From the NCBI RefSeq assembly GCF_037126465.1, contig NW_026999405.1, forward strand, positions 682,001 to 746,000: 64,000 nucleotides of DNA. Direction: 5' to 3'. Both the position numbers and the translations under genes were made by a program. The number at the start of each line of letters is the position of its first letter. Position 1 is the stretch's first letter. The notes below the pieces were generated by a model. It worked only from the letters and a program-made list of their open reading frames with translations, did not search any database and was not told where the DNA came from. Below are positions 1 through 63,060 of the stretch, one piece after another. The DNA is from Ornithodoros turicata (lineage: Eukaryota > Arthropoda > Arachnida > Ixodida > Argasidae).

Positions 1-92
1 CCTAACATCATAAAATTTAAACCTAAAACCTAGGAGCCCTAAAACGATGGCCCAGACCTGCTTGCAATGCCAGTGACAAGTAAGTAGGGTAA

Positions 93-3540: not shown

Positions 3541-3561
3541 TTGGGCTAGTTGGTAAGCATA

Positions 3562-42180: not shown

Positions 42181-42192
42181 CCTCGTCGCCAG

Positions 42193-43490: not shown

Positions 43491-43822
43491 TTAAAGGGAC
43501 TATCGCATCCGGAGGCATGGGTAGGAAATGGTTACGAGAATGCTTGGCATCATTCGACAATCGATGTCACCGATTTTCACTGCTCAGAAATGTTTGTGTA
43601 TTAAATAAACGAGCTTTTTCGATCAGCGAAACCTCCGATGACATCATTGTGACGTAGAAGCCAACAGGACCAATGCGAGGGCGGCGCGCCGCCGGCGCCG
43701 TTCCCCCATTTTCTCTCGGAGACATCGTCTGCTTTGGAGATGGCGTCGTGCATGGCTACGTGTATGAAACAACATATTTCTTCGAAAGCGCTGTGAATGT
43801 CGCTCAGTGGTGAAATTTCAAC

Positions 43823-44149
43823 ATGTCGTTGAGTTCGGGAACGCGTCGTGGTGTTCCTAACGGCAAAAAATCGTCTGGGGCGAACCCAGAAATGACATTT
43901 CAGGAACCCAAGGACAGGGACGCCAAACGAAAGTTGGAAGCAGCAATCGCCGGCAGGCTTCTTGTTGTGGCAGAAGGATTGCACGTTCGGCACGTTTGTT
44001 CCTCCCAGTTTGCCGACGAAGCGTACGTGGAGGCGGACCTATTGCAATCCCGTATGGGAGTGTCAGCGAAATGCAAGAGGCTAAAGCCCTATGCTGTGCC
44101 CACGTTGTTCCATGAGCAAATGGACACCACCGACGTACCGGATGAGCAG
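43823..44149 (+). pseudogene. THAP-domain exon, zinc ligands degraded
   Basis: From the ATG at 43,823 the frame reaches a donor at about 44,149 (GATGAGCAG then GTAAGC). The translation follows the THAP pattern: GVPNGKKSS, NPEMTFQEPKDRDAKRKLEA, HVRHVCSSQFADEAYVEADL and finally RLKPYAVPTLF, the AVPTLF box being typical. Key zinc ligands are missing: the N-terminal cysteine positions read R-R and G, and the C-x2-H pair reads C-S-S-Q. THAP domains bind DNA and occur at the N-terminus of P-element and some Kolobok transposases. Later exons could not be assigned; a short exon may lie near 44,513-44,559. Confidence 0.7.
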
Positions 44150-45984
44150 GTAAGCATTTGTTTCCAGATGTTGTTTCCGAATGTACATCGGAATATGTAT
44201 AAACCGCGGCCGGCAATGATGTACCAGACCCCCTTAGGCCCCACTAGCACCTCACGTAATTTTTTGACGGCATCCCTCTAACTTTTCCGGTTGCAATATT
44301 CAAAAGATTATCAAATTATCTATTTATCAATTAAAGTTTAAGAAAAAGTTTATCCCATCTTTCTTTGCTCATGTAACACAGCATGCACTCACCATCATTT
44401 TTGTGAGCAAGAGAGAGCCAATGAGGCAGCTTTCCAACAGAATAGCCCCATTCGGCATTATACTTTTATGCATCATATTGTCCAACATCAGGTGCTCAAT
44501 TTCTATCTCAGGTGGAGAGAAGCAGCTTGATGGTAATGGTACAAGCAATCTGCTTCAGGTGGTGAGTATCACAAGCTTCTATTCATTAGGAAAGTTTAAT
44601 ATCTGTGTTCTACAGTGAGTCTGAGTACAGTGAGTACATTCTGAGTCAGAGTGAACGTTCATGTTGTGAAACCGGCAGCTCATGCGGAGTATCAGCCTCT
44701 ACGAGTGATATATATTGCTCACATACTGTGAAGGCTTGATGTTGTTATATAGCGAATTTTTATTTTTAGGTTCTAGTAGTGAGGCTTCCCCCTGCGTCAC
44801 ACACTGAATGAGCCAGAGAAACTAAAGTAAAAAACAGACCCTTTCCAGGGCCACCACATGTTTTATGCAGAGACAAACACTGCGTTATGAACCCTCCAAT
44901 ATGCACATTATTGTTTTTGGTCCAGCTGCAAACACTTTTCTGAATTGTGTTTGTGATTCTGATGAACTTTTTTAAAATGCAATTTTAGTAACTGGCTATG
45001 AACGGCGTCTAATGAACTATATATGCACACCTGTGACTTTTAGTACAATTCCAGTTACAGTGCACAGAGGACATTCCAAGGGTTCAAGAATATGGTGGTA
45101 TTGGGCTTTGATATGTGCATGATAGTAAGTTTTTTCTTGTTTCAGCACATCAAGCTTCACATCTGCACTGCTCGTATATTGTATAGAAGGAAAGACCCTG
45201 TTACCACCCTGTCAACATGAACCTAAATGCCAGCTCTCCGCCCAGCAACTGGAAAGATAGCACGGAGGAGGGAAATAAAATCTACTGGCATAATGTAATC
45301 AGCTTTTGTTTGACACATTTAATATTTGTATCATGTTCACAAAGCTTCCATGTACACAGGAGGAGATAAAACTGTGGTAATACACACATTGGCACTAACC
45401 TCTATCCTCCATTTAGAAATGAAGCGTAAATCCATGCTCAGGGCAAAACGCACCAGTTTCTTTTTTTTTTTCCCGACATAGGTGCAAAACGTGGTACAAA
45501 AGAAACCTCTCCATGGTGAAGCTGAAAGGTGGTATTCAAAATATGCATTACACAAGTACCACTGCTTGTCCTCGTCGTGTGATAACCTTGGTTTGTACTC
45601 CAGAATGATTTGCAATGAAAATTATTTACACATTCCGCTGTACTTGCAATATCTGACTACAAGTATCCACTGCTTGTGAGACATGCTTCTTGAACTGTTA
45701 CAAAGGGTTAAAACTTTCGAAACGGTCAGTGCATGCACATATGACTAACACTATGACCAGCATAACGGCTCACTAATTTGTGACTTCACAATGCAACATT
45801 TCTTCACCACATATGGTTATGAAAAGCAGGAACCATCGATAATGTTTTGATAGTGTACACAGTTACGTCTTCTCAATAGGAAACTAGCTTTTATGAACAT
45901 ACAAAAACAACAATGACAATAGCGATAAGTCCTACAATGGATATGCCTGGTCTGCATACAGTGACCCACTTGACACTTATGTGG

Positions 45985-46734
45985 CTCGTATGATCCACTA
46001 TATGAAATTGATGGGTACAGCGTCCTGATCCTGCGCACAGGACATCCTGGTATCCGCCTTCGGTTTCTTATGCCAAGGTACCCATAAATCCAGCTTGTGA
46101 AGAAACAATACGCAGTGAAGCGGAGGCGCCTGTGTAAAACAATAATAAAGAAGAAAAGTAATTATTTATTTGACTAAGAGCAGTAAAGTTTTAGTAAAGC
46201 ATTATCCATGTGCTCGGAATGAAATGGGAATGAAATCAAGCCATTTACGACGTATGAGAAGTGTTTTGACACTGTACCTACTGCAAGTCGCTCAAAAATA
46301 CGCGGCGGTCATCACGACAAAAGATGGGTGCGTCAACCAGCGAGCTCCCTCCGCAGACAAACGCCATTGAGGAGCAGGTGATCGGCGATACAACTATCCC
46401 TGCAATTGCCGAGGCAACCGACACCCTGTGTTCGTCAGGTTCCACTGGAGTACAGCGAGTGCAGAGGCATCTGTCATTTCCAAGTGGACAAATGTCAAAA
46501 TGTCCGGCAGTGCACAATCATCATGAGCGATCGGATATGATAGGCTTACCTGAAAGTGTCGTCGCCACCGGACGGTTCGTTTTCACTGCCTGCACTCTCA
46601 CTTGCGGCAGGGTCAAGTGGCAGATGGTCTGTGGAGTAAGGGTCGTAATCTAACACAATTTCTTCAACGCTGTAATCCCCAGAATCGCTTGGAAGCGACG
46701 CGACGTCACTTTCGTATTACGACGATTCCGACAT
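45985..46734 (-). pseudogene. P2X7 intracellular-domain-like (P2RX7_C-type) gene, decayed
   Basis: Exon 1 (about 46,734-46,550, donor GTAAGC) encodes an acidic leader, GDYSVEEIVLDYDPYSTDHL, with a TAA at codon 6. Exon 2 (about 46,520-46,280) shows RCLCTRCTPVEPDEH and, after a frameshift, SCIADHLLLNGVCLRREL. That matches the C-x-C-x2-C ... CI-x-DH ... CL order of the cysteine-rich P2X7 tail domain. Exon 3 begins at 46,129 after an acceptor (TTTTACACAG) and reads TAYCFFTSWIYGYLGIRNRR then IPGCPVRRIRTLYP, the conserved AYR-FT-W-GYLG-NR-IPSC-V-IR-YP end. The domain forms a zinc- and guanine-nucleotide-binding ballast in P2X7 receptors; here it stands alone without channel segments. Function in the transposon is unknown. 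Confidence 0.75.
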
Positions 46735-47294
46735 TACGCTTGGTGTCTGCTGGCCGCCTCGCATCCAGATGCCCCGCGGCCCCACCGATCAGCTGTGCGG
46801 GAAGAAGCGCTCTCATTGGCGCTGTTGAGCGTGACGTTATCAAGGCGTTGTGGAGAGACGGTGGAGAGGGACCTCATTATGCGTCGTCTGCTCTCTCGAT
46901 GTATTTCATTAGATTGCTCAGCACATACGCCACCTATTCACTTGGGGTTTTCGCGGCCCTTGTCAGATGTCACTGAGAAATATTGTGGTACTGAAGTTTC
47001 GGAATCGACCGAGATGGATGCGATAGTCCCTTTAAATCAATTTTTAAGCAATCTGTAACCGCTGTCTTGTGGTTTTATTTGGTTTCTGGGCTAAGAGTTG
47101 AGAAAATCGACGTGAGCTTCTTCGTCTTTGGTGTGCTTGCTTACTGTTTGTTTTTTTTTGTTTTTTTTTTTACATCTTCTGCGATGTCGACGGAGTCCAT
47201 TAAAGCTTTTTTTTTTTTTTCAGAGCAGTGCTGCCAGTCATTCTTTTTCTGAGTGGAAGCTTAGGTTTTCACAACAAGCTGTGCATCTTTCGTC

Positions 47295-47400
47295 CTGAAG
47301 AAGACAGTGCCACTGTCGCAACGTCGACGCTTTTTTTATTTAACTTTCAATTTTCGCCATATTAAATAAACTAGTGTTCTTAACTTCCCTAACATCTGTT
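47295..47400 (+). ncRNA. Hammerhead-like core at a Penelope-type terminus
   Basis: CTGAAGA, a perfect six-pair stem GACAGT/ACTGTC, then GCAAC and GTCGAC, followed by an AT-rich tail with TTAAATAAACTAG. Penelope-like retroelements are known to carry hammerhead ribozymes in their terminal repeats, with the core CTGANGA-stem-GAAA. Here GAAA reads GCAA, so catalysis is doubtful. The architecture recurs at 13,095, 21,182, 43,460 (minus) and 59,457 (minus). Confidence 0.4.
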
Positions 47401-47933
47401 GTCGACATCTTTTTCTTTCCACGGCCCTAAGGGCACCCTTCATGGCTTATAGCCTGCTGAATGTGTACTTGGCTACAACATCAGGTGGCTATGCAGGTTG
47501 TAATACACATTTTGACTCTTGCCCGTGATGAGACATCTTCGACCGTAATGACTACCTTGGCCGTATTGAGACTTTCGACCGTCATGAAACATCGGCCGTA
47601 ATAAGACTTCGGTCGTAATGAGATACAATCTTTTGTACCGAACATGGACAGATTTCTCCGCGACATCATATGTATCCTTTGACAATTTCGTCCGACGTAA
47701 GAATAAAACGGAGCCGCACAAACTTCAGCGAACTTGTTCTTATCGGTGCGTCGCAATCCAGGTTAATCAGCTGCATTTATAACCCACCAGGAAGTTGTCC
47801 AGAGCTGAGGAAAACAGAGAGCCAGAACGCTCTATTTCAAGTCTCCTGAACTCGAGGAGTCTTTGCTCGAATTCACTCGCGAGATCACTAAGCGTGCGGA
47901 TGAACCGGTCTGTTGCTGATGGCATTGAATGTA

Positions 47934-48150
47934 CAGCTTGGGACAAAAGTTTACGGAACACGTCACTGGCATATTTCTTCATCGGAGAGGTTTACTGCTA
48001 GATATCTGGAAGAGATCGAAAAAGAAACGGGTGACTGGCTATTCTATCCATCCCTAAGTATGTGTGTATCCGCTCCTGTTTGCTGCTAGGGGATCGCACC
48101 AATGGAGAACTGCGTGTCAACGGTGCTCTGTGAACTTTTGTCCCAAGCTG
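47934..48150. mobile_element. Tc1/mariner-type MITE, CAGCTTGGGACAAAAGTT termini
   Basis: 217 bp. The left terminus after TA is CAGCTTGGGACAAAAGTTTA, and the right end is CACAG...AACTTTTGTCCCAAGCTG. The right flank reads AA where TA is expected. Inner arms pair imperfectly. The terminus is related to, but distinct from, the CAGTGCTGGACAAAAG family. Confidence 0.8.
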
Positions 48151-48466
48151 AACCAATATTACAAATTGGCCATTTCGATTTTCGGTTTCATCGGTAACTC
48201 TCAACCCTCAATCATATGATTAGATGTTGGAAGTTCGACGATCCCCGTCTGTCTTTGCGTTACTTTTGTCATCTTTGCTGTTGTCGTGTACGAAATGGCT
48301 CTGTTCGTGTCTTATGTGGAGAGTAGGCTACAGGAAGGTTAGGGCAAGATTACCACAGTTCCGATAACTAACCAACGCAAGATAAACTTCACGAGTACAG
48401 GGCTCTGTCATAACGGCACGACCGTTCGTGAGGCTTGGGCCGATTTCTCTTTTCTCTCTCTCTCTC

Positions 48467-48596
48467 TGTAGAAACCTGACACATTGCCCATTCCGAAGAC
48501 GACGACCAATGGCTCCATCGCGTGATCCTTTTCTTCTCTTTACTGTTCTACCATTAAACGGGTTCATACCTAAGGCTCTCTGTCCTGTCTTCCACA
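48467..48596 (+). repeat. 5' LTR of the BEL/Pao element
   Basis: 130 bp, TGTAGAAACCTGACACATTG to GTCCTGTCTTCCACA. It differs from the 3' LTR by a single T/C. The flank on the left is CTCTC. Immediately downstream TGGTGCCGTGAACGAG is a plausible primer binding site. Confidence 0.95.
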
Positions 48597-48655
48597 TTGG
48601 TGCCGTGAACGAGAAGGCAACAGGGCTGTCATCATCGATCGTCCCTCACTCAGGT

Positions 48656-51600
48656 ATGGACCGCTCACACTTGATCAAACGACGCAAAGTCCTCCGAACG
48701 CAAGCCACTACGGTCGTCAACGAGCTCCAGCAGCTCATCGCTACCGATCCCCTCACTGATCGCTATGACATTGACGAGAACTGTTCACGCCTTCGCGAAA
48801 TCGACGATGCGTTACGCGAAGTCGACAATGCCCTCGCACCCCTTTTTACTGAAGAGGAATCTGAACAAGAATACGATAAACAGTTCGAGTACGAAGATAA
48901 GATTCGGAGAACCCTCTTTCGTGCCAACGTTTTCTTGACGGCAAACTACTCCCCATCACGGGCGCCTCCAGCTGCTCATACAGTTAATTCCTCTCAGAAT
49001 ACCAACGAAGCTCCTGCCATTCCTCCGCGTCGAACCCTTCGCCTTCCTACGCTTGATCTCGTCAAATTCGATGGACAGAAAGGCAAATGGCAGCAATTCT
49101 GGACTCGTTTCGAATCTATCGTTCATCACAATGTCACTCTCGCCGACGGCGATAAGATGAACTACTTGATGGCTGCCTTGGAAGGTCCCGCTGCAAACGC
49201 AATTAGTGGCTTACAAATAACGGCAGCGACGTATAACACAGCCATCAGTCTTCTCCGTGATCGCTTTGGGACCGACTCTGCTCTTATCGAAGATCACCTG
49301 AAAAGTCTTGCAGACGTCGAACCTGTCAAATCAAGCCGACAGGTCCCACAACTTCGTAGTCTGTACGACTCTGTTCAAGCGCACCGTCGTGGACTGGAAT
49401 GCCTAGGCGTTAGCATTAAATCTTATTCTGTGATGCTATATCCTATTCTACTGCGCGCGATCCCTACGGACCTCGCCTTACAATTTAAACGCGTTCTCGG
49501 CGAAAACACGGACACGGATCAGTCCACGGGGGATACGGATCAGTCGTCGCCACAGGACTTCCACACGAAAGCGCTTTCAAAGCTCTTAACGTTTCTGGGA
49601 AATGAGATAACTTACCGAGAGCAGGTCCACCATCACACGTTCCAAGCTCCTTCTGGAAATGGTGGTTTAAGGTTCGGATTTCAATCCCGATTCAAACAAA
49701 GCTCTCGTGATCCTTTGACGACTCTGCAGAGCACCACCAGACGCGAGAAGTGTATCTTCTGCAGTAGCTTGGCGCACCTTACCTCCGACTGTACCGTGAG
49801 CAAACCTCTTCAAGACAAGAAACGGATGCTAGCCGCTGAACGTAGATGCTACCGCTGTACCAAGCCGAACCACTCGGCTAAACTCTGCAGAGGCACCCCA
49901 AAATGTAAAACTTGCTCTGGTAGGCACGTATCCAGCATGTGTGACCCCTCATACCGTCCTCGTCCTAATGAAGCCACTCAGACCGTTAACTTGAAGGCTA
50001 CAGTAGTCCCGTCCAAACACAGAGTGCTTCTTCAGACCGCAACTGCACGCTGCCGAGGATCCACCATTGCCCTGCACGCGCGACTAGTCCTCGATGGCGG
50101 CAGCCAGCGAACGTTCATCTCGACCGGACTGTCCAATGCACTGCGCTGCAAGCATCTTCATACCGAAACTATCTCGATAGGATCCTTCGGGCACGCTGTG
50201 AGTCGCCCCCAGCCAGTCAACGTCGTCGAGCTTCATATACTCGGCAATTCATCGATAGAAGCACAAACCATCACTGCGCTGGTAGTCGAGCGAATCTGTT
50301 CGCAGGTTCTTGACGCTCCGTCAACGGAAATAACGGAAAAAATGAAGACGTATGGACTTGTGCTCGCTGATACTACCGCTCCAGACGATCCTGCCCCAAT
50401 CAGCCTGTTGATCGGCGCCGACCACTATTGGGATTTCGCCATCGGTCGAACGCACCACCTACACCAAGGAGTACAAGCCGTTGAGACCACTCTCGGCTGG
50501 ACGCTACAGGGACCCTATTCGCCAGCATATTCAGTCAAGACGACTAGTTGTCACCAAATCGCTGTGCTCAACACTGTATCCCAATGCTCAGGAGAGCTCC
50601 ACACACTACTGGATCGTATATGGACCTTGGACAGTATCGGCATCTCGGCGACCGAAACACAGAAAGACAGTCACGTACTGGAAGAATTTGAAGATTCCAT
50701 TAAGCTGGAGAATGGACAATATGTGGTGTCGCTACCATGGCGCGCAAACGTCTCCATGGAACCTAACCGACAAACAGCAGAGCGACGTTTGACGCAAGTC
50801 ACCAGGAGACTGTTGAAGTCTCCCGATCTAGCCGCCACGTACGACACCGCCATACGCGAATACCTACTCTCTGGTGTGGCAGAACGAGTATCGCATGATG
50901 CCCACAAAAACGACCAAGCTCATATTTACTATATGCCTCATCATGCCGTAATTCGGGAGGACAGGATAACAACCAAGGTCCGGATCGTGTTTGATGCCTC
51001 TTCGCATGACGACTTCACACGATCGCTGAACGACAACCTCGATCCCGGACCGAACCTCAACCCGAGCATACTCAGCCTACTCCTGAACTTCCGCCTCCAT
51101 CCTATTGCGTTAGTTGCCGACGTCCAAAAGGCTTTCCTTCAAATCGCCATTCGCCAGGAAGACCGTGATGCGCTCCGCTTCCTATGGTACTCTACACCAC
51201 CAACGTCGGATCAGCCATTGCCTGACGTCGAGACATGGCGCATGACAAGGGTGACGTTCGGGACAGCTCCCAGCACATTTCTCCTAGCAGCAACATTACG
51301 TCACCATCTCCGTTGTGTTGCGGAAGAACACCCCGCAGCCGTCGAGCAACTGACAGACGCCATCTATGTAGACGACGTCATAACGGGTGCAGTTAACGAA
51401 GAGGATGCCTGTCAGACGTGTCGAGAACTTCAGGACATCTTCGCCAAGGCATCCATGACATTGCAGAAATGGGGTTCCAACAGCGCAAAACTCCGTGACA
51501 TCTTCAAGAACGAGCCGAACGCCATTCTGATCAACAACACTACCAAAGTACTAGGAGTGACATGGGATCAAGAGAAGGACGTATTGTCACTGCCGATTAA

Positions 51601-52063
51601 GTCCCTGTCGCAAGAGCACAACCAGAACCCGGTATCCAAAAGGAAGGCACTAACGCTTGTAGCCGAAATCTACGACCCTCTAGGTCTCGTCATACCGTGC
51701 ACAGTAACCGGCAAAATTCTTCTACAGGAAACCTGGAAACGTCAACTCGCATGGGACGACAACTTACCGGAAGACCTACTGACGAAATGGCAGGCATGGC
51801 ACACCGACCTGCAACGTCTGAACGACATTCAACTGCCACGCTGCTACACACCAGGTGCATCTATCACAAACGGCGCCGAGCTCCACTTCTTCTCGGATGC
51901 AAGTCCTCTTGCCTATGGAACCGTTGCCTACATGCGTATCGTGAACGACACAGGTATAGTTACCACACACTTGCTCACTTCAAAGTCCCGGCTGGCTCCT
52001 CTCAAAACCTGGTCATCATCAAAGAACCTGGCGTCAACAGACTTTTATGGAAGTTGGGGTTAG
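48656..52063 (+). CDS. BEL/Pao gag-pol polyprotein, C-terminally truncated by deletion
   Basis: The likely start is the ATG at 48,656 (MDRSHLIKRRK), because upstream codons lie in the LTR and primer site. The gag region has the BEL capsid pattern (LDLVKFDGQKGKWQQFWTRF). Cysteine knuckles are encoded at about 49,751 (CIFCSSLAHLTSDC), 49,848 (CYRCTKPNHSAKLC) and 49,908 (CKTCSGRHVSSMC). The protease reads LDGGSQRTFIS near 50,090. Reverse transcriptase landmarks are LVADVQKAFLQIAI and IYVDDVITGA (near 51,363). RNase H begins FFSDASPLAYGTVAYM, then stops at LTSKSRLAPLK near 52,000. There the DNA jumps to the very end of the integrase tail (LVIIKEPGVNRLLWKLGLVE, ending RRAIQHIYKLE), which sits in another frame, so the fused frame ends with unrelated residues at 52,063. 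Confidence 0.9.
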   Translation: MDRSHLIKRRKVLRTQATTVVNELQQLIATDPLTDRYDIDENCSRLREIDDALREVDNALAPLFTEEESEQEYDKQFEYEDKIRRTLFRANVFLTANYSPSRAPPAAHTVNSSQNTNEAPAIPPRRTLRLPTLDLVKFDGQKGKWQQFWTRFESIVHHNVTLADGDKMNYLMAALEGPAANAISGLQITAATYNTAISLLRDRFGTDSALIEDHLKSLADVEPVKSSRQVPQLRSLYDSVQAHRRGLECLGVSIKSYSVMLYPILLRAIPTDLALQFKRVLGENTDTDQSTGDTDQSSPQDFHTKALSKLLTFLGNEITYREQVHHHTFQAPSGNGGLRFGFQSRFKQSSRDPLTTLQSTTRREKCIFCSSLAHLTSDCTVSKPLQDKKRMLAAERRCYRCTKPNHSAKLCRGTPKCKTCSGRHVSSMCDPSYRPRPNEATQTVNLKATVVPSKHRVLLQTATARCRGSTIALHARLVLDGGSQRTFISTGLSNALRCKHLHTETISIGSFGHAVSRPQPVNVVELHILGNSSIEAQTITALVVERICSQVLDAPSTEITEKMKTYGLVLADTTAPDDPAPISLLIGADHYWDFAIGRTHHLHQGVQAVETTLGWTLQGPYSPAYSVKTTSCHQIAVLNTVSQCSGELHTLLDRIWTLDSIGISATETQKDSHVLEEFEDSIKLENGQYVVSLPWRANVSMEPNRQTAERRLTQVTRRLLKSPDLAATYDTAIREYLLSGVAERVSHDAHKNDQAHIYYMPHHAVIREDRITTKVRIVFDASSHDDFTRSLNDNLDPGPNLNPSILSLLLNFRLHPIALVADVQKAFLQIAIRQEDRDALRFLWYSTPPTSDQPLPDVETWRMTRVTFGTAPSTFLLAATLRHHLRCVAEEHPAAVEQLTDAIYVDDVITGAVNEEDACQTCRELQDIFAKASMTLQKWGSNSAKLRDIFKNEPNAILINNTTKVLGVTWDQEKDVLSLPIKSLSQEHNQNPVSKRKALTLVAEIYDPLGLVIPCTVTGKILLQETWKRQLAWDDNLPEDLLTKWQAWHTDLQRLNDIQLPRCYTPGASITNGAELHFFSDASPLAYGTVAYMRIVNDTGIVTTHLLTSKSRLAPLKTWSSSKNLASTDFYGSWG

Positions 52064-52207
52064 TCGAACGTACGCTTCCAGGCTCTGACGGTAGAGTCAG
52101 AGTGTGCCTGTTACGAACCCCTGAGCAAAAGCTCATAAGACGCGCCATCCAGCACATATACAAGCTCGAGTCCTCAGGGCACCACGACACCTCGCCCGGG
52201 GGCAGGC

Positions 52208-52337
52208 TGTAGAAACCTGACACATTGCCCATTCCGAAGACGACGACCAATGGCTCCATCGCGTGATCCTTTTCTTCTCTTTACTGTTCTACCATTAAAC
52301 GGGCTCATACCTAAGGCTCTCTGTCCTGTCTTCCACA
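52208..52337 (+). repeat. 3' LTR of the BEL/Pao element
   Basis: 130 bp matching the 5' LTR with one mismatch (GGGCTCATACC against GGGTTCATACC). Preceded by the purine-rich CCGGGGGCAGGC and followed by the CTCTC duplication. Confidence 0.95.
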
Positions 52338-52396
52338 CTCTCACTCGGTGGCCACACGGGAGGCATAGCAACACTAGAGTCACTAAATAGAGAGCA

Positions 52397-52794
52397 CACT
52401 CTAAATATTTTCACACCTTTAAAGGTGTAACAGCGTGCATGGAGCACGCCTTTTTAGGTGTAATTTTGGTAACATCATAATGGAGCACGATTTCGCACAA
52501 ATTATCTTTACTCGAGTGTTGTCTGTCCTCCAAAAATTCAGTCTCGCAACATCTCAACATTGTTCAACAGTATTGCAGACACTTGCGCGTGCTCGATTAT
52601 CGATAGCGATGCATATATGCATTAGCTCGTACCTGCGATATCCAAGACATAATGAAAGCAAGATTTGCACTGACACTTGATCTTTAGTAATGCTTTCCAA
52701 ATTTTGTAAAATATCATCCTGGAGATGCAATGTTACGCAACCAGATTGAATGTGCATAGCGCACACCTTTAAAGGTGTGAAAAAGTTTGCAGTG
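52397..52794. mobile_element. 398-bp MITE (copy 2 of the family at 5,720)
   Basis: Opposite orientation to copy 1. Termini CACTCTAAATATTTTCACAC and CACTGCAAACTTTTTCACAC (reverse complement of the right end), both followed inward by ACACCTTTAAAGGTGT or a close variant. It is flanked by CA on both sides (52,395-52,396 and 52,795-52,796), whereas copy 1 is flanked by TA. The internal sequence is highly similar to copy 1 over its whole length. Confidence 0.9.
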
Positions 52795-53059
52795 CAGAGT
52801 AGCGACACTGAGCCACGCCGGAGAGCGAGACCGCCATCTTGGGTCCGGCGCGGCTGCGTCGCCTAGCAACGGGACGCCAATCTCCCCCTTCTCCGCCGGA
52901 GAACAACGTGCAGTCTAGCCAGCTCACAACCGAGGAAACCGGTTTTGGATGGAGGGGAGCTCAACATGGACGGCGCGTTCTTGGAAGAAGAAACCACGTG
53001 ACACGATCGGCCCAATCGAGGACACGGAACGGCGGCTCCGGCGCGGAAAAGTAATGCGA

Positions 53060-54165
53060 TACTCTGTACCCTTATTTAGTGACTCTAAGCAACACCAGGC
53101 GGGCCGCATGCAGCCCGCGAGCCACCATTTCGGCGCTCCTGACGTAACCCCAAATGAAGAAGTAACATGGCGTGAGATCGAGGATCGGGGAGACCACTCC
53201 ATATACGCATTTTAGGGAGCATCAGCGCATCCACTGGAGTAAGCGCCGGCTCCCGTGAGAAGGTGCCCCACATGCATGAAGATGTAGATTTCTTTCCGCA
53301 TGCGCAGTGCCTCGATCTCTGGCAAGAACTCACGCTGGAGCATAGTAGGGTGTCTCTCTCCAGTGATGGTGTCGCGGAAAAGGGGACCAACAATCCCTTG
53401 CCTCCACATCCCGCCCGACAGACCGATCTTTCGGGACTGCACAATGCATTGCAACGCCCAATCTGGATTGTTTGCGAACCAGTATCGGCAGTTATGGCGG
53501 TTTACGTGGCCACTAAGATGAAAGTTCGCCTCGTCGCTAAACAAAATAAACTCGAGAGTGAGCTGAGCTATCAGCAATGCACCGCAGCCCTCTGCTGCAG
53601 AACTACATACAGCGATCGCAATCTCCTGACCCCAGTTCGTGAAGCATTTCAAGTTTTTACGGAGAGAGAGAACAGTCTTTGAGTTTGAGCCCTGGCTGTT
53701 GACATGTCAGGACGGTCTTCGAACGTGCACAATACGGTGTTGGCGAGTTCGTCTGTTCGTTTTGTGTTGGGGTGATCATGCTTCTTGTTCCTTACAGAGC
53801 CTTCCTCGGTGAAACGCTTTGTCCACTTTCTTATGATGTGTACCGGCCTCGGTGGCTCAGTTGGTAGCGTGTTCGCCTTCTGATCCCGAGATCGCGGGTT
53901 CGAACCCGGCCGAGGACGCCAGCAACTTGGTGGCAGGGTACAAGTTGCTTAGACACGCCGTCTTCCGCGAGGGACGTTAACTACGGGGTGCCGTGTGATG
54001 AGCTTTCATCGCACGTTAAAGAACCCTCAGGTGGGCAAAAGCAATCCACAGACCGACCGCTGTGGCGTCGCTCATGATCTCAGTTGTCTCGCGACGTAAA
54101 CACCCAATTATTGATATTCTTATGATGTGGTCCGAGGGCACAGGGTGGTTCTACATCGCCGTCAG
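53060..54165 (-). pseudogene. Tc1/mariner (IS630-type) transposase, decayed
   Basis: Minus-strand remnant. The helix-turn-helix part reads HIIRKWTKRFTEEGSVRNKK (near 53,780-53,840), then STARAQTQRLF. The DDE part reads LEFILFSDEANFHLSGHVNR with the first catalytic Asp (near 53,540), then GMWRQGIVGPLF. At the expected second Asp (FMQDGA-type motif near 53,270) one base is missing, breaking the frame exactly there. Further on DLTPCYFFIWGYV (near 53,130-53,170) is the C-terminal signature. Several other stops and shifts are present. The Ruka SINE interrupts it at 53,841, and its upstream end abuts the poly(A) end of a non-LTR element at about 54,168. Confidence 0.8.
53841..54116 (+). mobile_element. 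Ruka-type tRNA-derived SINE, full length
   Basis: Begins TACCGGCCTCGGTGGCTCAG. Box A is GTGGCTCAGTTGGTAGC and box B is GGGTTCGAACCCGG, spaced as in a tRNA gene, so it should be transcribed by RNA polymerase III. The body has GCACGTTAAAGAACCCTCAG and the tail TCTCGCGACGTAAACACCC with CAATTATTGATA. An exact 13-bp target duplication TTCTTATGATGTG lies at 53,828-53,840 and 54,117-54,129. It interrupts the Tc1/mariner transposase pseudogene. Ruka is a SINE described from ixodid ticks; it needs a LINE partner for movement. Confidence 0.93.
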
Positions 54166-54167
54166 TT

Positions 54168-54942
54168 TCTTTTTTTTTTTTTTTCAGCAATTCTTAGCTT
54201 TGTGTACCTGAGCACTACGTATATGCTCTATCGGACAGTTAGGGGAGGGAATATGTTTATTAAAGATAAAGAGAGGGGGAAAGGTCAGACAGGCCAAGGC
54301 CGACTTGCTATTGCCAAAAGCGAAAAAAAAAGAAAGAAAGAGAAAAAGAAAAAAAAGAAGCAGAAAAGAGGGGACGATGGGGTGGCTGACGGGGTGGCTC
54401 AAAGGCTCTCAAGGTGGGGTGGCTGATGGGGTGGCTCAAGGCTCAAAGGCTGCTGAGCAGCCCAGTGTCCTTCAGGTAACACAGGAGGGCTCGGGTGACT
54501 GCCCACTGTCTGGAGTGCCGGACAGGTCCCAGCAGCGTCGCCATGGAAAGTTCCCTGTGGCCTAGGGAAGTGAGATTTGTGGCGAGGACGGCTCGGGGGC
54601 CGGCGTACCGCTTGCAGTGCAACAAAAGATGGCATATGTCGGCGACTGCAGCACATCAGGGACACATCTGGGACGTCCGTCTATCTATCTTTGAGAGGAG
54701 CAGCGGGGTCAGGGCAACATCGAGGCGTAGGCGATGGAGGATCGACTCCTCCTGTCGCGACAGCCGCTGGGAGAGGATGAGTGTCAGGCAGGCCGATGGA
54801 GTGAGAGGAATGGTGGTGGTCATTGTGGTGGCAGCTGCCCCGTGCGCGCCTCTCGCCGCAGCGTCAGCGCGGGTATTTCCCGGCAGGCCGATGTGGCTGG
54901 GGACCCATTGAAGCCACACGCTGTGGCCGGAGGCGGTGAGAC
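54168..54942 (-). mobile_element. Non-LTR retrotransposon copy B, 3' part (RNase H end, tail, poly(A))
   Basis: On the minus strand the part starts within RNase H (LTASGHSVWLQWVPSHIGLP, then GNTRADAAARGAH). It continues through SRQEESILHRLRLDVAL and the cysteine/histidine tail (CHLLLHCKRY) to LLCYLKDTGLLSSL near 54,443. A 3' UTR with purine/pyrimidine-rich repeats follows, then AATAAA and a run of about 16 A residues (plus-strand T-run 54,168-54,184). The same tail is in copy A at 10,832. The upstream half of RNase H lies 8.36 kb away at 63,302. Confidence 0.85.
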
Positions 54943-55205
54943 CCCTATTGAAAAATCCTACGAACTTTCTTACAAGATTAGAGCTTTCTTTTAGGAATTC
55001 TCACAGAGGATGTGGATCCCTACAGACATTCTTACAGAGAACATATTTTCTCACACAAAATCCTTTAAATGAACTTCTGATGGTGCATCTTAAGAGAAAT
55101 TTCAAGGATGGTTTTTGTGAGAAGAGATGCAGAGCTCTGTAAGATCTCTCACGGCTTCTAAGATCTGCAAGAGAACCCTTTCTAATAGAATTTCTCACAG
55201 CAACC
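54943..55205. repeat. Left subterminal repeat array
   Basis: About ten variants of a 10-bp motif (TTCTTACAAG, TTCTCACAGA, TTCTTACAGA, TTGTGAGAAG, TGTAAGATCT, TTCTCACAGC) occur in both orientations next to the left terminus. Confidence 0.7.
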
Positions 55206-55209
55206 CCAT

Positions 55210-55595
55210 CTGAGTCATGTGACAGACTGGCGCCGTGTTGCTCTCTCTACTAGTACTCTCTACTGTGTTTCACTCTCTCAGACTGGCGCCGTGCCTCAAC
55301 GAAAGATGATCTAGTAGACCGTGGCGTTCGTGGTGTTCGTGGTTTGACCGTTTGGCGCCGCCATTCAAACACATGTAGTGAACGGTGCAGGAGTCTGCTA
55401 CGAATACTCAATATGCGTCCACGTAAACTACATCGAAGACGGCATGGAAGCGATACTTCACGCAAGTTTATTACGGAATCTGAGACAACGACATAGGAAG
55501 GCCTCAACAAGAACATTAAACTGGCGTTTTGGCATGCTGAGGATAGCAGCGTGGCTGGAACCGGGCAGAAGTAAAAATGCGTGGAGGTAAGCTCA
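55210..55595 (+). other. Promoter-like region and possible first exon inside the 8.36-kb insertion
   Basis: AGACTGGCGCCGTG occurs twice (55,213 and 55,280) and TTTGGCGCC, an E2F-like sequence, near 55,352. A short frame from an ATG near 55,412 (MRPRKLHRRRHGSDTSRKF) runs towards a donor AG/GTAAGC near 55,589 but meets a TAG. It may be the decayed first exon of the insertion's own gene. This is guesswork from position. Confidence 0.2.
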
Positions 55596-56723
55596 GTTAT
55601 CTCATTCAACGTGGTGACTGCTCCTCAGGAGTACGCATTTCTAGAAGGCATTGCATTTGTGTAATTGCGTCTTGTAGAGGTTTACAGCTTTTTCTACTTT
55701 TGTGCAGAAACCGAGAGTGATCTTATTACGACTGGAAGAAAATATACCCATACCTCGTGTTTTGAAGTGCGAAAATTTATTTCAGTAGACCAGTTCCTCC
55801 CATTGTTTCGACTGGCCGCCGAATCCGTCCATGCATCGCGTCAACTGTAGTCAGTTTCATGGTGCTGTTTGCGTGAGGTGTTCGGTCTAACGTCCAAAAT
55901 TTTAAAATGATTGAGGTATCTAAACTAACGGTAAGGGTACGGTGATATCGGAAGTACTGTACTGAAGCTTCTAAAATTGTGTATTTAGAATATTGTTGAT
56001 CTCCCACTAGAGAAAATTATATCTCCCCCAGCAAACCATCAAATATCGTATTTGTTTACTAGTTGTAGTATCCTCCACGCCTCTTCATTTTTTGGTAGGG
56101 GTGGCAGATGGGGAAAGTACGACAAACACTTACGAATTATACAGAATGACATTTCTTGTCTTGCAATTTATGTGATGTGCATGGTCTTTATGAATTCATG
56201 CTGTATTTGTTTTGGTCTTGCTCGATTGTGTATTTGTATTGCACCTTTTTTACAACTTTCTTGCTCTGCAAGTCAAATTATGCTTTATGCTCTTAGACAA
56301 TCGCGTTTGTATGGTGACCCAAAATGTATGACTACTCTGGATGCATGACTACTATGCATCTTTATTTGAAGACGATTTTTTTCTGTTTTTACGGACTTAA
56401 AAGGACTCTGACCAGAAGTTCGACAAATATTTCGTTTGCATCTATTACGAAGGTATAATATGCCTCCAAGCCACACGCGAAATATTTTGGCTGTGCGCGG
56501 AGGCAAAGTTTGCCAAACAGGGAGCTGAAAACCGGCTTCGCTTTTCCCCCTCAACTCGCGCAATCGGGGCCGAAATCTAGCCTCTTTGCAGTGGACATCC
56601 GCCAATTTCCGTGTGCGTGACGAAATCACGAGGGCCACGTTTCATTGGGCGCCCGGACCGGAAGTTCTGTTGTTAGTGAGTTTGTGAGAGCGCCGGCATC
56701 CGTCCGGAAAGCGATCTTCAATA

Positions 56724-57836
56724 TGGACGTCGAAGGCAGAAATGCGGAGACTTCGAGCCCGGAACTTCTTTCTGACCTTTCTGCGATCGAGACATCGAGA
56801 AGAAAATTCTGCGTGCTGAACAGCTTGGTAGGCTTTCGAAACGTCGCCGATGCCGCGAATGCGAGACGAAGTTAGAGCTCTACGAGCATCAGTTACAGAT
56901 GAAGCAAACAGCATGAGTCGCCTGTCTTCAGGTAAGCGATGAGCTTTTTAACGCACACTGTGATCGAACATGTAAACGTTCTCAGAAATTTCATGTTCTG
57001 ATATCTAATGCGCACTTGCTGTTCATGGTGCCGGTGTGGCTGGTGTGTCATAATGCCGAAGGAGATCGAATGCTTGTGCTGCAAGGAGCTCGAAAACACT
57101 GCCGAATGACTGCAGTATGAGTGCATTACAACCCACAAAGATTTCCAACTTCTATTCTTCAATATGACTGTCCTGAAGGTCGCATATTGAACTCCGTGGG
57201 CAGCGCGAACCTATGAGCGACTGTATTCACAAGTAAGTCACATGTGTCCTTGTCGAACGACGTTAAAATTTGGGCGCCAAAAACTGGTTTGGTCGTGCAA
57301 TAGAGTCGTTAAAAACTCCAGTACAGGGCGCAGCACATAAAAAGGCTATACAGTACACGACTCTGAACTGGAGAAAACCAATATAGGCAATTTTGTAATT
57401 GTCAGTGTGCTGTGTCCTGAGTCACGTTTTTATGTATTGCCCTGTGCATAAGGTTTTAGCGTAGGTTTTTAGCGATATTGAGTGTTCTTGATTGTCGATT
57501 CAGTGAAAAGTAAAATAATTTTGGGTTCTAAAAGAACACAGCATGTGTAGTAATGTACAAGGTGTGGGCAGGTAAGCTGCAGTTACTCTCAGGTACATGT
57601 AGAAATGACAATGCACACACACTGTACTGTAACCGGCTACCTATTTGCCTAAACTATATTTTATGTACATCTGTGTAGACGATGCAGATACACTGCGTAT
57701 CGCCAGTTTGCAAGGTGAGTATGGCACAAGCTTGGAAAAACAAGATCATGGTCATCCCAGCCTGTGCAGTGAAGAGGGTCTGGCAAGCCTTTCCCACAGA
57801 AAATGCCACAGGCTTCAAGTACCCAAGGTCCTAACT
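56724..57836 (+). pseudogene. P2X7 intracellular-domain-like (P2RX7_C-type) gene 2, decayed
   Basis: A possible first exon runs from the ATG at 56,724 to a donor near 56,934 (CTTCAG then GTAAGC); its frame is broken. The second exon, about 57,029-57,226, contains the clear zinc signature CRCGWCVIMPKEIECLCCKE. It continues YECITTHKDFQLLFFNMTVL and ERLYSQ with two in-frame TGA codons, and ends at CAA/GTAAGT. The third exon starts near 57,678 after TCTGTGTAG. It reads RCRYTAYRQFAR, then after a stop and a frameshift NKIMVIPACAVKRVWQAFPT and GFKYPRS with a stop near 57,836. Order and residues match the P2X7 C-terminal ballast domain. The same gene type is in element 1 at 45,985-46,734. Confidence 0.8.
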
Positions 57837-57899
57837 GGGGGTACCTCTTCGCACAGCTCGTCTATCACATTTAAAATAATTCAGCATCTGTATTTAGGA

Positions 57900-59380
57900 T
57901 GATCTATAGCTCTCAGGATGATGCATGGTTCATGAGTTCAACATGTTGTGTTGAAACACAACACTAGTCCTTTTTAATGAGCCTTGCGGAACGATAGATG
58001 AGCACTCCTTTCGTGACATTGTGTACCATTGCTGCAGTGAACAATTTCTTGAGCAAGACTGATGAACGAACAAAAAATAGAGTCTTGTCTTCCAAATATG
58101 TGTGTTCCTTGTAACTTCCGTATTTGTTAAGTGACCCATGTTGATGTCCCCCCTCATGTAATGCCTGCAATGGCCTTTGAGATATATTCATAAATAAATA
58201 AATATCAAAACCGGAAAAAGATATAACACGTATCCTCTCTTTGTGTGAATGATACATAGACATTCTCAGAAGATTTGTACATAGTCACACTTTGCCTCAT
58301 TTTGCATAAAGCCTAGTTCCACCTCTTACATCATCTCCACATCTTCAATCTCCAAAGCAGTACAAGGCTAAAGTAATCAGCTACTACATAAAAAGAAGGA
58401 GGGGAGGAACACAAATGCTGACACATCTAAAATTCGAAGAAACCCTGGTACTTTCACGGGGCTACTCACGGCTCAGTGCTGGATCAGATCCCGATGGAAA
58501 ACAGCTTTTCTGAGCCTCAGTGATAGATTCCTTTGATTGCACTGACTGTGAGGCACATCTCATTGGCTTGGTGGCAAGTGGGCTTGCGTCTGATAGTAAG
58601 ATTTGGAAGAAAGGGAGCAAGGAACATCGCTCTACGGTCTTAAGGAGGATATCAACGTTACCTGTCAAGGTACAGCATTTCATGTTGCTTTCAGTAAGTA
58701 CAACACTCCTCATAGCAGTTACCATTCGTGTTGGGAAAGCATGCTGAATTTAGCTCAGGTAGTGCATCCAGAACTGTGAATCGGGTTCATAGAGAGCACC
58801 TGGTGAGAGGGACAGCAACAGTGTCCAGTAAAGACTCTCCAGGAATTTTGTGCAGGTTTGGGGGTCACACCTTTTAATAGTGTTGATGGAAAACAGGGTG
58901 TGTGAAACACTGACTTCTGGTAGATGAATTCTTGTTATTTATGACCAGGTACCCATGTTCTAGTAATCTAGAAAAAGCCTTGGCTCTCTTGGAGGAAATT
59001 ACTAATGAATCTGAGTGTCTTTTGTGGAAAGAGGTTGTAACTGCCTTTCTATCCACCCTTCTTAGTTGCCCTAGCAAAAGCAAATATGTAATACTGTACA
59101 CCATATCTGATGCTAGCACACTAATTGCTTTGAGTGTTCTCAGGCTTCTGAAATGGAGCTACCTCGTACATACGCTGTGCCATGTCGGCAAGAACATAAA
59201 TCAGACTGCCTTTACTTTTTAAATTGGCCCTTCAGTGCTTCATGTGACTGCAAGAATGGCACCCCCAAAACAATAGGCAACAAGAATGATTTCTGCAATG
59301 TATTGAGCTTTGTAAAACAACAACTTTATTTGAAAATATATTCCAAAAGCCGGGTGACAACCTCATAATGTAGCGTCCTT
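57900..59380. other. Unassigned interior of element 2
   Basis: Open frames at 58,462-58,747 and 58,932-59,222 have no motif I know. They may be further exons of the element's transposase, which I could not identify. Confidence 0.3.
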
Positions 59381-59384
59381 TACT

Positions 59385-60000
59385 GCAAACACCGCTGAAC
59401 ACAACGAATAAAAACAGAGCGTAAACGTTTTGTCGCCTATCCGGGAAGCATCATCAGTACAACAGAGGCCAAAGATGAGCACATCAGCCTATCTAAGAGG
59501 GAATCTTACACATCCGATAGGGGGCCACGGTATGTATTACAGGCTGAAGCATCACGCCTGATAAAGCAGGATTCTAAGAACTTTCTAGGGCCCCATCGCT
59601 AGTCATGAGCAAAGATTACTGCACCATCAAAATATATGTCCCTTAGAACAGCAGTGGTAGACTGATTCGGTCCTCTTTAGTTAAGCTAAGCATTAGTAGC
59701 CCTGGCAACTGGCTCTTTTAGTCTTGTCCCAAGTCTTTTGTCTATCTCGCCAATGTAGGTTGCATCACATTGTATGCACTCAACTTGATATGCACAGTCA
59801 AAATGCCTGATGGGCACAGTGCCCTCCAAATAGCGTATGAAATACGTTGGATGAAAGGAATGCGGACCACCGATTTGACTCCTTTGATGTTGTTTTTGAT
59901 TGTTCTCTGTTGGAGGGATGATGCCACCTGGATAGGCAATTAAACATTTACTCTCTTTATTCTTGATTGTTGTGTTAAGCCAGTGTTCTGAGTAAAGCAT
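59385..60000 (-). pseudogene. Penelope-like element 3' end with GIY-YIG domain
   Basis: On the minus strand a frame gives VRIPFIQRISYAIWRAL, the conserved stretch before the endonuclease in Penelope-like elements. A neighbouring frame gives YQVECIQCDATYIGEIDKRL and GTRLKEP, the start of the GIY-YIG endonuclease. The frames differ, so a shift separates them. The reverse transcriptase is missing. The end of the element near 59,424-59,457 carries CTGATGA and an ACAAAACG segment recalling a hammerhead core, in the position where Penelope elements carry it. Confidence 0.7.
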
Positions 60001-60298
60001 TTTACATTATGAACTTTGTTTGAATGATGATTAGTGGCGAGCTTCATACCCTGGGCCACTACTCTAACAATTGCTTGTGGTAGTGTGGCGAAATGGAATA
60101 ACGAGCCTTGTAGACAATTTACTTGGCAATATATTTATTTATCTCTCATAGGTTGAAGAACCCAGTGTGGTGTTACATAATGGAGGGGCACGTAATTATA
60201 CAAGACCGATCACCAAAAGGCCTTGCTTTTGACTAGATTAAAATGTGAAGCGATTGTAATATAACAAATGCTGCATGGTGGCGATATGATAGGTTCTC

Positions 60299-60700
60299 CT
60301 TACGAGTTGTCGCCGCAGTTACGGTTAGTTGAGAAACTGCATATCCAGGTAGCAGGATCAAATTTTAATTAGGCTACTTTGGCCAACACGCGAGCGTAGA
60401 GCACAGTGTCAAAAGCCCTTACAAAATAAAAAGAATACTACATCTACGTGGACCCAGAAATCAAGACAGTTTGAAATGCTGTGAACGAATGCCACTACGT
60501 TAGTTGTGCATGAATACCCTTTTCTAAAGCCATGCTGGAATTTAAAAAAAGAAATCGACATGGTAGTACATGATGTACTCCATTAGTTTACAGGGAACCC
60601 TAAAAAGTGGAGCTGGTTAATAGATAGAAGGAGCATAGTTGTCACCTCTTCTGAAGACAGGAATAAGCTTGAGACCTATGTCCTCGACTAAAGAACCTTT
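60299..60700 (-). pseudogene. Non-LTR retrotransposon reverse-transcriptase fragment
   Basis: The minus strand encodes QHGFRKGYSCTTNVVAFVHS, then VDVVFFLFCKGF in place of the usual VDAIFLDFSKAFD, so the catalytic block is damaged. Upstream pieces near 60,600-60,700 resemble the region before the fingers (KFQHGF preceded by a stop-containing stretch). Clade is Jockey/CR1-like by appearance. It is an inactive fragment inside TTAA element 2. Confidence 0.65.
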
Positions 60701-60989
60701 GACACAGATTAACGTATCTTCATTCCAGCTCTTTCACTTTCAGATGTTCATCTCTGTTGAGTGGTCTGTCATTCTTGTAATAGAGATTGGAATTGAAATG
60801 CAGGTGCATAAGGGATGCTCTGAAAGAAAAGTGTTTGGTTTTAGTCCTCTTAATGTTTCTGAAAACGAAAACAAACTTCACTGTGACTATTCTTCTGAAA
60901 TTAGCAATTCCAGGATGACAGCAAAAAAATATATCTTGCCATATCATTATATCCACCTGGCACTTCAATTGAATAATGGCAGTTGAAGA

Positions 60990-62370
60990 TGACGATGATT
61001 CAATTTAATGACGCATAAGCAACTCGGGCTATAGTGCGCCAAAACCATGGTAAAACTGTGAGTTGTTAAATATCAGACGATTATACTAAAATAATATACT
61101 TTGTTGGTTGGTAAATTGAGATATAGACAAAAACATGATATGATAAAAATAAGCAATTGAAGAAAAGGCAATTGTTGGCTTTGTGTGACTGATGTCGAGT
61201 TTGTCACAGTACGTGTTGAATAATAATGTACGCTGATACGCTGTAGCATATAAAGTACAATCATACACACGCTCAATATGTGGTGGATATGTGAAACCAA
61301 TATACACATACTTACATTTCAAACTTTCTTGAAAAAGGCAGTGTAAGTCTGTCGGATTTGCCAGACTCTATACAAAGCCAGTAAGCACAGTGTGGAATGA
61401 CTGATTCATCTTTTGAAGGCAGAGGTGCAGCTACCACGACGCTTCGTCATCTCAATGCTTCGGAGCGGCATAGCCTAGTAAGAAGCCATCAGAAGGATCT
61501 CATAACGATAACTTGGTCGAAAAAGTGGAGGGTTCTGTGGGATATGTAAGAAAGCATACGCGTTACACAACAGCTACGAGAATGATCGACTGCACCTGCA
61601 TGGTTTTCAGTACGTAGACTTGGAACTGAAAAATAAATGTGCTAACCTTGTTGATACTACTTTTCCGTCAGGACCACACGAGAGCACATTTGGTTTTTTT
61701 AGTTGAAGGTATCATCAGGCCCCTATGCTCCTTTGAGATGCAGCAGACAGAAGTTCGCTGAGGCGAGTGACTGCCGTTGCGGTTCGTCGCTTCGCAGCAG
61801 ATCAAGAACAGTACACCGCAACGATAGGTGAAACGTTCAGAATATGGTGACCAACTCCAACACCAACCCAATGACCCGAACAAAGACGATGAACCGGGAG
61901 TCACACAAGTTCGCAAGCTCTGCATACGGCATCCATTACAGCTGACCGGATACGGAAGCATATATCGAACGCCGTGTACAGATTGAAAAGAAAATCGTAG
62001 AAACTGTTGCAGGTGATAAATGCAGGGTATATTTTTCTTTTTGAGGCTCTGTAACAAAAACATATTAACGTAGAAATGCCATTTCATGAAGGAAATTAAC
62101 AGATATTGCGTGACCACGTGACGCGTTTGAGCCAATTGTGGGTGTTGCGAGTGGCCCCCGTGTTGACGTCATCTTGATGGTGGGCCGGGGTGGATATTCT
62201 ATATAAGCGTATGTTTTCTCGGTTTGACGCTAGGCGTGCTGCACTCGGATGAAGTCGAATGTTTAAAATTCGAGTTTAGAGAAACCGTGGGGTTTTAATG
62301 CGTGAATTTTCGCATGTGGAGTCCTTGTTGGGTGCTTTATCGACTACAAGTACGAAAGAGCTCCCACAGT
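60990..62370. other. Unassigned right part of element 2
   Basis: Small frames only. A TATA-like TCTATATAAGCG lies at about 62,198, facing the right terminus. No THAP-like translation was found here on either strand. Confidence 0.3.
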
Positions 62371-62452
62371 TTCTGGTCAGAGTCCCTTTAAGACATTCTG
62401 CTTTCGGAACCTTCTGCATGCTGAACATTCTGTACCAAACGTAAGAACGTAT

Positions 62453-63060
62453 AAACACCATGTAGATGTGTTTACGGTCTTACGTTTGGAACAGAAGGCG
62501 CAGACTACGGAAGGTGCATAAAGCAGAATGTGTTAGGTCCATAAAAAGAGCATGAAAATTAAAGCAGCGTTCGTTATTCTCATATTGGAATTGTATATGA
62601 CTCGCAATAATGATCTCTTCACGGCGATATGCCTTATCATAACTAAAACAGCTTATCCCGCGCAGTAGTCACCATTACCTGCGAGTATAAATTAATACTC
62701 CGACTGAACTGAGCGTGTGTATCACAATTGGGGTTTTCTGGCCCAGATTATGATTTTTATTGCACCATATGCCAGTATTCTAAAATGTGTGCTCCTTCAT
62801 CCAATTTCCGCACACACATGCTTTGCCTGCTTTTCCAAACAAGAGCATATGTAGCATCGTAATGTCACAATTGACATTATGACGTTCTTACTTTCTTTTC
62901 TTTTTTCTTTCAGATGCATATAAACGATATCTTAATGAGAGGCCCTCAGATCCACCGAAGGCTACAAGGCTGAGTTCTTTTGTTCTGCACATGCGATTTT
63001 TTTTTCGAACGATTTAAATAAAGAGTAAACAGATTGCACAGATTGTCACTTGGTGTAGAA
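62453..63060. other. No recognised feature
   Basis: Begins with a short imperfect inverted repeat (TACGTTTGG types near 62,435-62,490), otherwise AT-rich DNA between element 2 and the right subterminal array. Confidence 0.35.

Follow-up and report, generated by a model that had tools for sequence, protein, structure and literature searches.

Whether genes for the ballast domain of P2X7 receptors that occur without a channel are host genes or parts of transposons is the question raised by a 64,000-nucleotide stretch of the tick Ornithodoros turicata (assembly GCF_037126465.1, contig NW_026999405.1, positions 682,001 to 746,000), hereafter the window. An earlier note, made from the letters alone, had seen two remnants of such genes there, each beside one end of a TTAA-flanked element, and had proposed that they are passengers or working parts of Kolobok-like transposons. 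We conclude that the two elements, E1 and E2, are almost certainly inactive, nonautonomous members of two Kolobok families of O. turicata, both Kol0-like and bearing the gene KolX. According to the portions of Kojima and Bao (2022, PMC9587614) consulted, KolX, the accessory protein of the Kol0 lineage, folds like the P2X7 ballast, and a fusion with KolX gave rise to P2X7. The link between the P2X7-tail domain and Kolobok transposons proposed in the note is right but was already published in 2022.

Two TTAA-bounded elements with KolX pseudogenes

The elements and their KolX genes are laid out as follows (window coordinates; b, bases).

43491..43494, TTAA target-site duplication left of E1
43495..47031, E1, a 3.5-kb nonautonomous Kolobok element of 3537 b with perfect 16-b terminal inverted repeats (TIRs; 43495-43510 and 47016-47031)
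45985..46734, minus strand, KolX (P2X7-ballast) pseudogene 1 (exon 1 46734-46550, exon 2 from 46470, last exon about 46143-45985)
47032..47035, TTAA right of E1
56397..56400, TTAA left of E2
56401..62387, E2, 5987 b, one copy of a 6.0-kb nonautonomous Kolobok family
56723..57836, plus strand, KolX pseudogene 2 (exon 1 56723-56931, exon 2 about 57026-57232, exon 3 about 57677-57828)
62388..62391, TTAA right of E2

The TIR of E1 is AGGGACTATCGCATCC, and that of E2 is ARGGACTCTGACCAGAA (left AAGGACT, right AGGGACT). Pseudogene 1 starts 297 b from the right end of E1 and pseudogene 2 starts 322 b from the left end of E2; both read inward. The arrangement described earlier, with TTAA on both sides, ARGGACT-type ends and an inward-reading gene near one terminus, was therefore recovered for both elements. 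A scan of the whole window for TTAA-anchored inverted pairs (14 b, at most 1 mismatch, less than 15 kb apart) returned 10 pairs including E1 and E2, and 0 in each of 20 first-order Markov shuffles. The TIRs of E1 and E2 did not occur again in the window at up to 3 mismatches (shuffle means 0.01 and 0.00, respectively).

The gene positions also agreed with the earlier ones: the ATG of copy 1 lies at 46734 (minus) and that of copy 2 at 56723 (plus), 1 b before the 56724 given previously. The expected signature is present in copy 2 as WCRCGWC, ECLCC, CITTH, TAYRQF and IPACAV. Copy 1 retains CLCTRC, CIADH, TAYCFF and IPGCPV in different frames, but the R of the AYR-x-F motif is missing. Copy 1 has a stop at codon 6 plus frameshifts, and copy 2 carries frameshifts and in-frame stops.

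In Pfam, the last exon of copy 1 scored 26.9 bits with P2RX7_C (PF20478), above the cut-off of 23.5, and the middle exon of copy 2 scored 22.4 bits, just below it; the other 8 of the 10 exon pieces had no P2RX7_C match. The profile search that the earlier note had called for thus passed for copy 1, but fell about 1 bit short for copy 2 and left most pieces unscored. Against PDB chains, the joined pieces of copy 2 aligned to the P2X7 tail (residues 475-594) at E 2.1e-7, and seven cysteines were in register; seven is the number of zinc cysteines of the ballast domain given in the consulted portions of PMC9587614. The nearest protein to copy 2 was the O. turicata 'P2X purinoceptor 7-like' protein P0001 (51% over 100%, E 6e-48), which scored 71.1 bits in Pfam; copy 1 was nearest to O. 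turicata LOC135395652, P0005 (59% over 74%, E 6e-30), and its ballast domain is damaged.

The domain stands without a channel segment, as had been noticed: P0001 matched P2RX7_C only in Pfam, with no match to an ATP-gated channel. Six-frame read-throughs of E1 and E2 (12 frames), a weak test, showed no channel segment in Pfam either, and gave one P2RX7_C match below cut-off (18.0 bits) plus one chance match. Both KolX copies in the window are dead passengers; of the two roles proposed for them, passengers stands and working parts does not.

As side observations, E1 is flanked by two inverted copies of another repeat (43356-43478 and 47277-47379; complementarity 47 b at 77% and 30 b at 93%), the tail of which we take to resemble Penelope-type ends. 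Inside E2, a piece at 59686-60006 (minus) resembles a GIY-YIG (Penelope) end by eye and is unsupported by Pfam, and a piece at about 60350-60600 (minus) looks by eye like the reverse transcriptase of a long interspersed nuclear element.

KolX loci across the O. turicata genome

Stand-alone ballast genes have been described as ordinary animal genes, with fewer than 10 per species and some with common neighbours (PMC7016195, in the portions consulted), and on that precedent the genes in the window could be host genes that lie beside unrelated TTAA elements by chance. Counted exon by exon, however, KolX matches in the O. turicata genome numbered at least 232 with P0001 and at least 223 with P0005, and their flanks differed. 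We read 32 of these loci: L009-L028 at 10 kb (the 8 best matches and 12 picked by hand) and L029-L040 at 3.2 kb (the 12 best E1-type matches). A TTAA terminus was found upstream of KolX in 28 of the 32, comprising all 12 E1-type loci and 16 of the 20 others. All 12 E1-type loci had the E1 terminus, with its TTAA at a nearly fixed distance of 300-303 b before the ATG; 11 different flanks were seen among them, and L033 and L034, which have one in common, may be one duplicated insertion. Among L009-L028, termini of the TTAAAGGGTCYCTGACCRG type were present in 16 of 20 loci, and the sequence outside the TTAA varied between copies. Because the TTAA boundary repeats across loci, chance association is already refuted, and we give it a negligible probability.

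The position of the transposase points the same way. Its exons were opposite in strand to KolX in 14 of the 16 loci L009-L024. Among the 44 P0005-like matches to KolX exon 2 that were listed (at least 58%), 28 had a listed transposase-core match within 10 kb downstream on the opposite strand and none had one on the same strand, which again speaks against chance. An upstream transposase match within 20 kb was seen for 1 of the 44, and it belonged to a neighbouring copy; the 20-kb stretches to one side of the listed transposase loci make up about 0.16% of the genome. At L038 (C4:59208119-59211352), as a separate observation, an E1-family and an E2-family copy stand head to head with one TTAA in common.

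Across the genome, the E1 TIR had 910+928 matches and its reversed-pattern control 0. Pairing was checked among the first 100 listed sites, all of them perfect matches on contig C1, which gave 23 adjacent pairs less than 20 kb apart. Sixteen of these were 702-726 b long without a listed KolX. Of the other seven, two pairs of 10.1 kb, one of 6.0 kb and a nested one of 2.0 kb enclosed a listed KolX, a 3.5-kb pair enclosed the E1 junction described below, and pairs of 15.3 kb and 1.15 kb had no listed KolX inside. Conversely, for 11 of the 16 KolX matches in the paired C1 stretch, the list gave no perfect terminus in the 2.5 kb upstream, imperfect termini being outside the list. The earlier note had held that the association would be chance if TIR-bounded copies usually lacked the gene; taken nominally, 16 of 23 pairs do lack a listed KolX, but 4 of the other 7 hold one. 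Since these four pairs hold KolX and the 3.5-kb pair holds the E1 junction, we read the 702-726-b pairs as miniature inverted-repeat transposable elements (MITEs), which suggests that the E1 family includes an abundant MITE.

A further candidate, elements of about 2 kb that consist of KolX alone, had been suggested by a C1 TIR pair 2025 b apart that encloses an open KolX. It was rejected after L044-L046 were read: the inner TIR is most likely part of a short insertion nested there, and the similarity between copies runs past it to the fetched end.

Long relatives and the transposase superfamily

Two long copies were read end to end, and both carried KolX at one end and the THAP and DDE transposase exons converging on it from the other. 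In the E1 family, the copy made up of L043, L041 and L030 runs from TTAA to TTAA over 10.5 kb, and on the strand opposite to KolX it has exons for THAP, D1, D2 (TDRH to FDVWH, interrupted by one stop) and E (YGLEAFHS). In family A, L009 and L042 together make up a copy of 14.2 kb, in which D1, D2 and E exons accompany a THAP domain that scores 51.7 bits. The genome also has near-identical copies in which the KolX and transposase exons are open. With a TTAA terminus at most of the KolX loci read and convergent THAP/DDE exons in the long copies, the Kolobok assignment made in the earlier note was borne out.

The termini have the 5'-RR / YY-3' form, being AG/AG in E1 and AA/AG in E2; AG was found in nearly all relatives and AT in L031. 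TTAA duplications flank E1, E2 and 6 of 8 E2 relatives, the right end of the other two not having been found. PiggyBac elements also use TTAA and sometimes carry a KolX-like protein, so E1 and E2 might be assigned to that group. However, their termini start with purines (AG/AA), a feature that in the consulted portions of PMC9587614 sets Kolobok apart from piggyBac; the linked transposase is of the THAP/DDE Kolobok type, with a THAP domain and DVWH before the E, and the Pfam scans made showed no piggyBac domain. In addition, the KolX cysteines are kept in proteins P0001-P0004, bar one in P0002. A piggyBac origin is thus very improbable.

E1 and E2 as nonautonomous families

Four further features bear on the origin of E1 and E2.

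43823..44149, plus strand, THAP exon of the transposase in E1, ending AVPTLF and convergent with KolX; first two zinc cysteines lost
44707..44710, internal deletion junction of E1; about 5.9 kb with the DDE core gone relative to the 10.5-kb relative
58468..58683, minus strand, remnant of the C-terminal transposase exon in E2, convergent with KolX; 47% to the family-A exon, E 7e-16
62392..62560, hairpin repeat apparently interrupted by E2; the other arm retains a likely empty site

The E1 THAP exon and the E2 C-terminal exon are the only transposase parts in the window. The former is 80% identical to the THAP exon of the 10.5-kb relative and is below cut-off in Pfam (THAP, 19.7 bits, E 0.0015; cut-off 23.9); used as a query of the protein collection, it gave 227 candidates and none at E <= 0.01.

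E1 matches the 10.5-kb copy at both ends, but about 5.9 kb of the middle, the DDE core included, is missing. It is an internal-deletion derivative of 3.5 kb that retains the THAP exon and KolX. The E1 junction was spanned at no fewer than 39 other loci (40 of 145 candidates scored), 38 of them over at least 413 of 421 b (85-96% identity) and one over 99-421 (99%). L048 is a second full copy of E1, with 97.8% identity over 1-3545, other flanks and its own TTAA. Because the junction recurs and L048 matches end to end, E1 is one copy of a nonautonomous family. The first two zinc cysteines of THAP are lost in all three E1-type copies read (E1, L047 and L048), and the idea that the E1 THAP exon acts as a KP-like repressor was dropped on that ground. 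The codon-6 stop of KolX is common to both E1-type copies that reach codon 6; the L047 sequence ends before it.

When 40 of 903 candidates were scored, at least 39 other copies of the E2 family matched at 99% identity or more across some 838 b. The E2 terminus at the KolX end had 705 matches (340+365) when up to 2 mismatches were allowed, against 0 for the reversed pattern. When 8 E2 relatives were checked, the left end lay at TTAA in all 8 (one with a TIR mismatch) and the right end was found in 6, giving spans of 6006-6036 b; in the other two, it was not found in the 301-b window searched. A second E2 copy (98.6% over 929 b) has the same KolX stops as the copy studied here. In the few copies compared, KolX is thus shown to have been broken already before the E1 and E2 families spread.

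E2 also has a likely empty site in the other hairpin arm. When its flanks were joined, they aligned to that arm without a gap across the insertion point, and 13 of the 17 b left of the E2 TTAA match the arm at the anchored place. A score of 13/17 or better was reached by only 3 of about 128,000 17-mers of the window, two of which are necessarily the flank and the arm themselves.

Several points weigh against the assignment of E1 and E2 to inactive Kol0-like families. The DDE core is absent from the window, so the superfamily is judged from the TTAA, the termini, the THAP and C-terminal remnants, and the relatives; the putative Kol0-like placement is based on these features. The D1-D2-E pieces have no Pfam family above cut-off (MULE, 13.3 bits) and match nothing in NCBIfam or PDB, and Pfam scores are below cut-off for both the E1 THAP exon (19.7 bits) and P0005 (15.2 bits). 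In the 10-kb reads, no terminus was seen at L026-L028, the L015 terminus was degenerate, and L015 and L022 lacked a transposase. Among 80 listed older, more distant KolX rows (33 + 19 + 28), with exon-1 rows left uncounted, 1 had a transposase within 20 kb in a list that held best matches only. The evidence of shared lesions comes from one additional copy of E2 and two of E1, one of the latter ending before codon 6. Some close pairs are without KolX constraint (L026/L027, nonsynonymous and synonymous rates about equal), as expected of decaying copies. The empty-site check proposed in the earlier note yielded a likely site for E2 in the window, but the left flank alone is unremarkable when unanchored, 31 of 500 random pieces scoring equally.

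Candidate roles of KolX

For E1 and E2, long relatives with open genes would supply the transposase, and KolX, in trans, and the transposase would cut at the TIRs and insert at TTAA. KolX of the long elements appears from its conservation to be a kept, working two-zinc ballast protein. Between families A and B (L012/L019), the proportions of nonsynonymous and synonymous differences (pN and pS) were 0.16 and 0.73 in KolX exon 2, and 0.08 and 0.70 in exon 3, with synonymous sites near saturation; this constraint between families is the reason to regard KolX as kept in the long elements. Judged from its conservation, KolX most likely works alongside the transposase or the DNA complex that the transposase forms, and a role with the transposase would be the simplest reading.

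KolX might instead be hitch-hiking cargo or a decoy, dispensable for transposition and acting, for example, on the host. The E1 and E2 families spread with KolX and the transposase already broken in the copies compared, and 0.7-kb E1-TIR pieces are frequent, as the pairing check showed; both would fit cargo. However, nonautonomous spread shows that neither protein is needed in cis and nothing more, and KolX both shows constraint between families and occupies a set place opposite the transposase. Moreover, the KolX-encoding Kol0 lineage has been published for vertebrates, annelids, cnidarians and sponges (PMC9587614, consulted portions). We regard cargo as possible but less likely than a working partner of the transposase.

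A more specific role for such a partner, by analogy, is that of a trans-acting guanine-nucleotide and zinc cofactor of the Kolobok transposase, which we consider unlikely. The idea comes from the published guanosine diphosphate (GDP) site of the P2X7 ballast and the need of the P-element transposase for guanosine triphosphate (GTP). In the consulted portions of the sources, the P2X7 ballast binds GDP, and its R546 and R578 are reported to be conserved outside deuterostomes as well (Rump et al. 2020, PMC7016195); the P-element transposase (THAP/DDE) uses GTP via a domain inserted within its RNase H fold (PMC7776569); and the P-element superfamily has a C/DxxH motif in common with Kolobok (PMC9587614). 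Equivalents of R546 and R578 are present in P0001-P0004 and the E1 remnant, and the E2 remnant lacks the R578 equivalent. Against a cofactor, only 2 of 5 rat GDP contacts are kept, and GDP binding is unproven outside mammals. If the analogy holds, Kolobok may house its nucleotide sensing in a protein of its own, and vertebrates may later have joined that protein to an ion channel, giving P2X7. Comparison of P0001 with viral contigs gave 1 stretch that matched a pattern and 0 confirmed; an AlphaFold model of P0001 from 5 sequences had a mean predicted local distance difference test score of 42.7 and was not used.

Other repeats in the window

A second family of short TTAA-flanked elements of about 230-240 b, with a TIR near AAATGAACTTCACC, was seen at 12564-12790, 23662-23901, 30479-30718 and 35998-36236. 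A lone TTAAAGGGACT end at 35730-35740 continues as CGTAAATCC; the pair scan revealed no TTAA-anchored partner for it up to 15 kb away. Long open frames at 38800-42234 (minus) and 48386-52063 (plus) are by eye of the gypsy type and of a BEL/Pao-type retroelement, respectively. Weak RNase H matches below the Pfam cut-off lie at 54656-55000 (minus, 20.6 bits) and 63293-63634 (minus, 13.1 bits).

Comparison with known systems

New here are the chelicerate member, its scale, the convergent anatomy and the two nonautonomous families with dead KolX; neither the tick KolX case nor the cofactor idea was found in print in the open-licence literature searched. Genes annotated as 'P2X purinoceptor 7-like' (P0001) are transposon-borne in one tick genome, the contig assigned to P0001 (C127) carrying element L012, and the Dermacentor proteins of the same name (P0003, P0004) are probably transposon-borne too. 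This has consequences for gene counts and for the search for tick purinergic targets. The near-identical copies with open KolX and transposase exons make the role of KolX, and the original job of the P2X7 tail, directly testable.

The KP derivative retains the THAP end of the P element, and P elements are not known to encode KolX. The E1 THAP exon has lost zinc cysteines, so a KP-like repressor is unlikely. In the consulted portions of PMC7776569, the P element resembles the tick families in its THAP and DDE transposase and in small nonautonomous copies (KP), as E1, but differs in the internal GTP-binding domain of its transposase.

Kol0 Kolobok elements, as described in the consulted portions of PMC9587614, share with the tick elements the TTAA duplication, the purine termini, and a DDE transposase together with a separate KolX of the P2X7 ballast fold. 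They differ in that the host here is a tick, and Kol0 membership of the tick elements is putative. XKol and T2-MITE of Xenopus (Zoological Lett. 2018, PMC6004289, consulted portions) have the TTAA target, AGGRR in the T2-MITE TIRs, THAP plus DDE and full elements of 6.8-13.9 kb; the TIR sequences differ, and 'KolX' has 0 occurrences in the text of that paper.

The P2X7 ballast and zebrafish nanor (PMC7016195, consulted portions) have the same domain, matched here by the seven cysteines in E2 and by R546 and R578 in P0001-P0004 and E1. Unlike the P2X7 receptor, the tick protein P0001 has no channel part, and E2 lacks the R578 equivalent. In the same portions of their paper, Rump et al. (2020) saw no large multigene expansion, whereas O. 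turicata has hundreds of matches.

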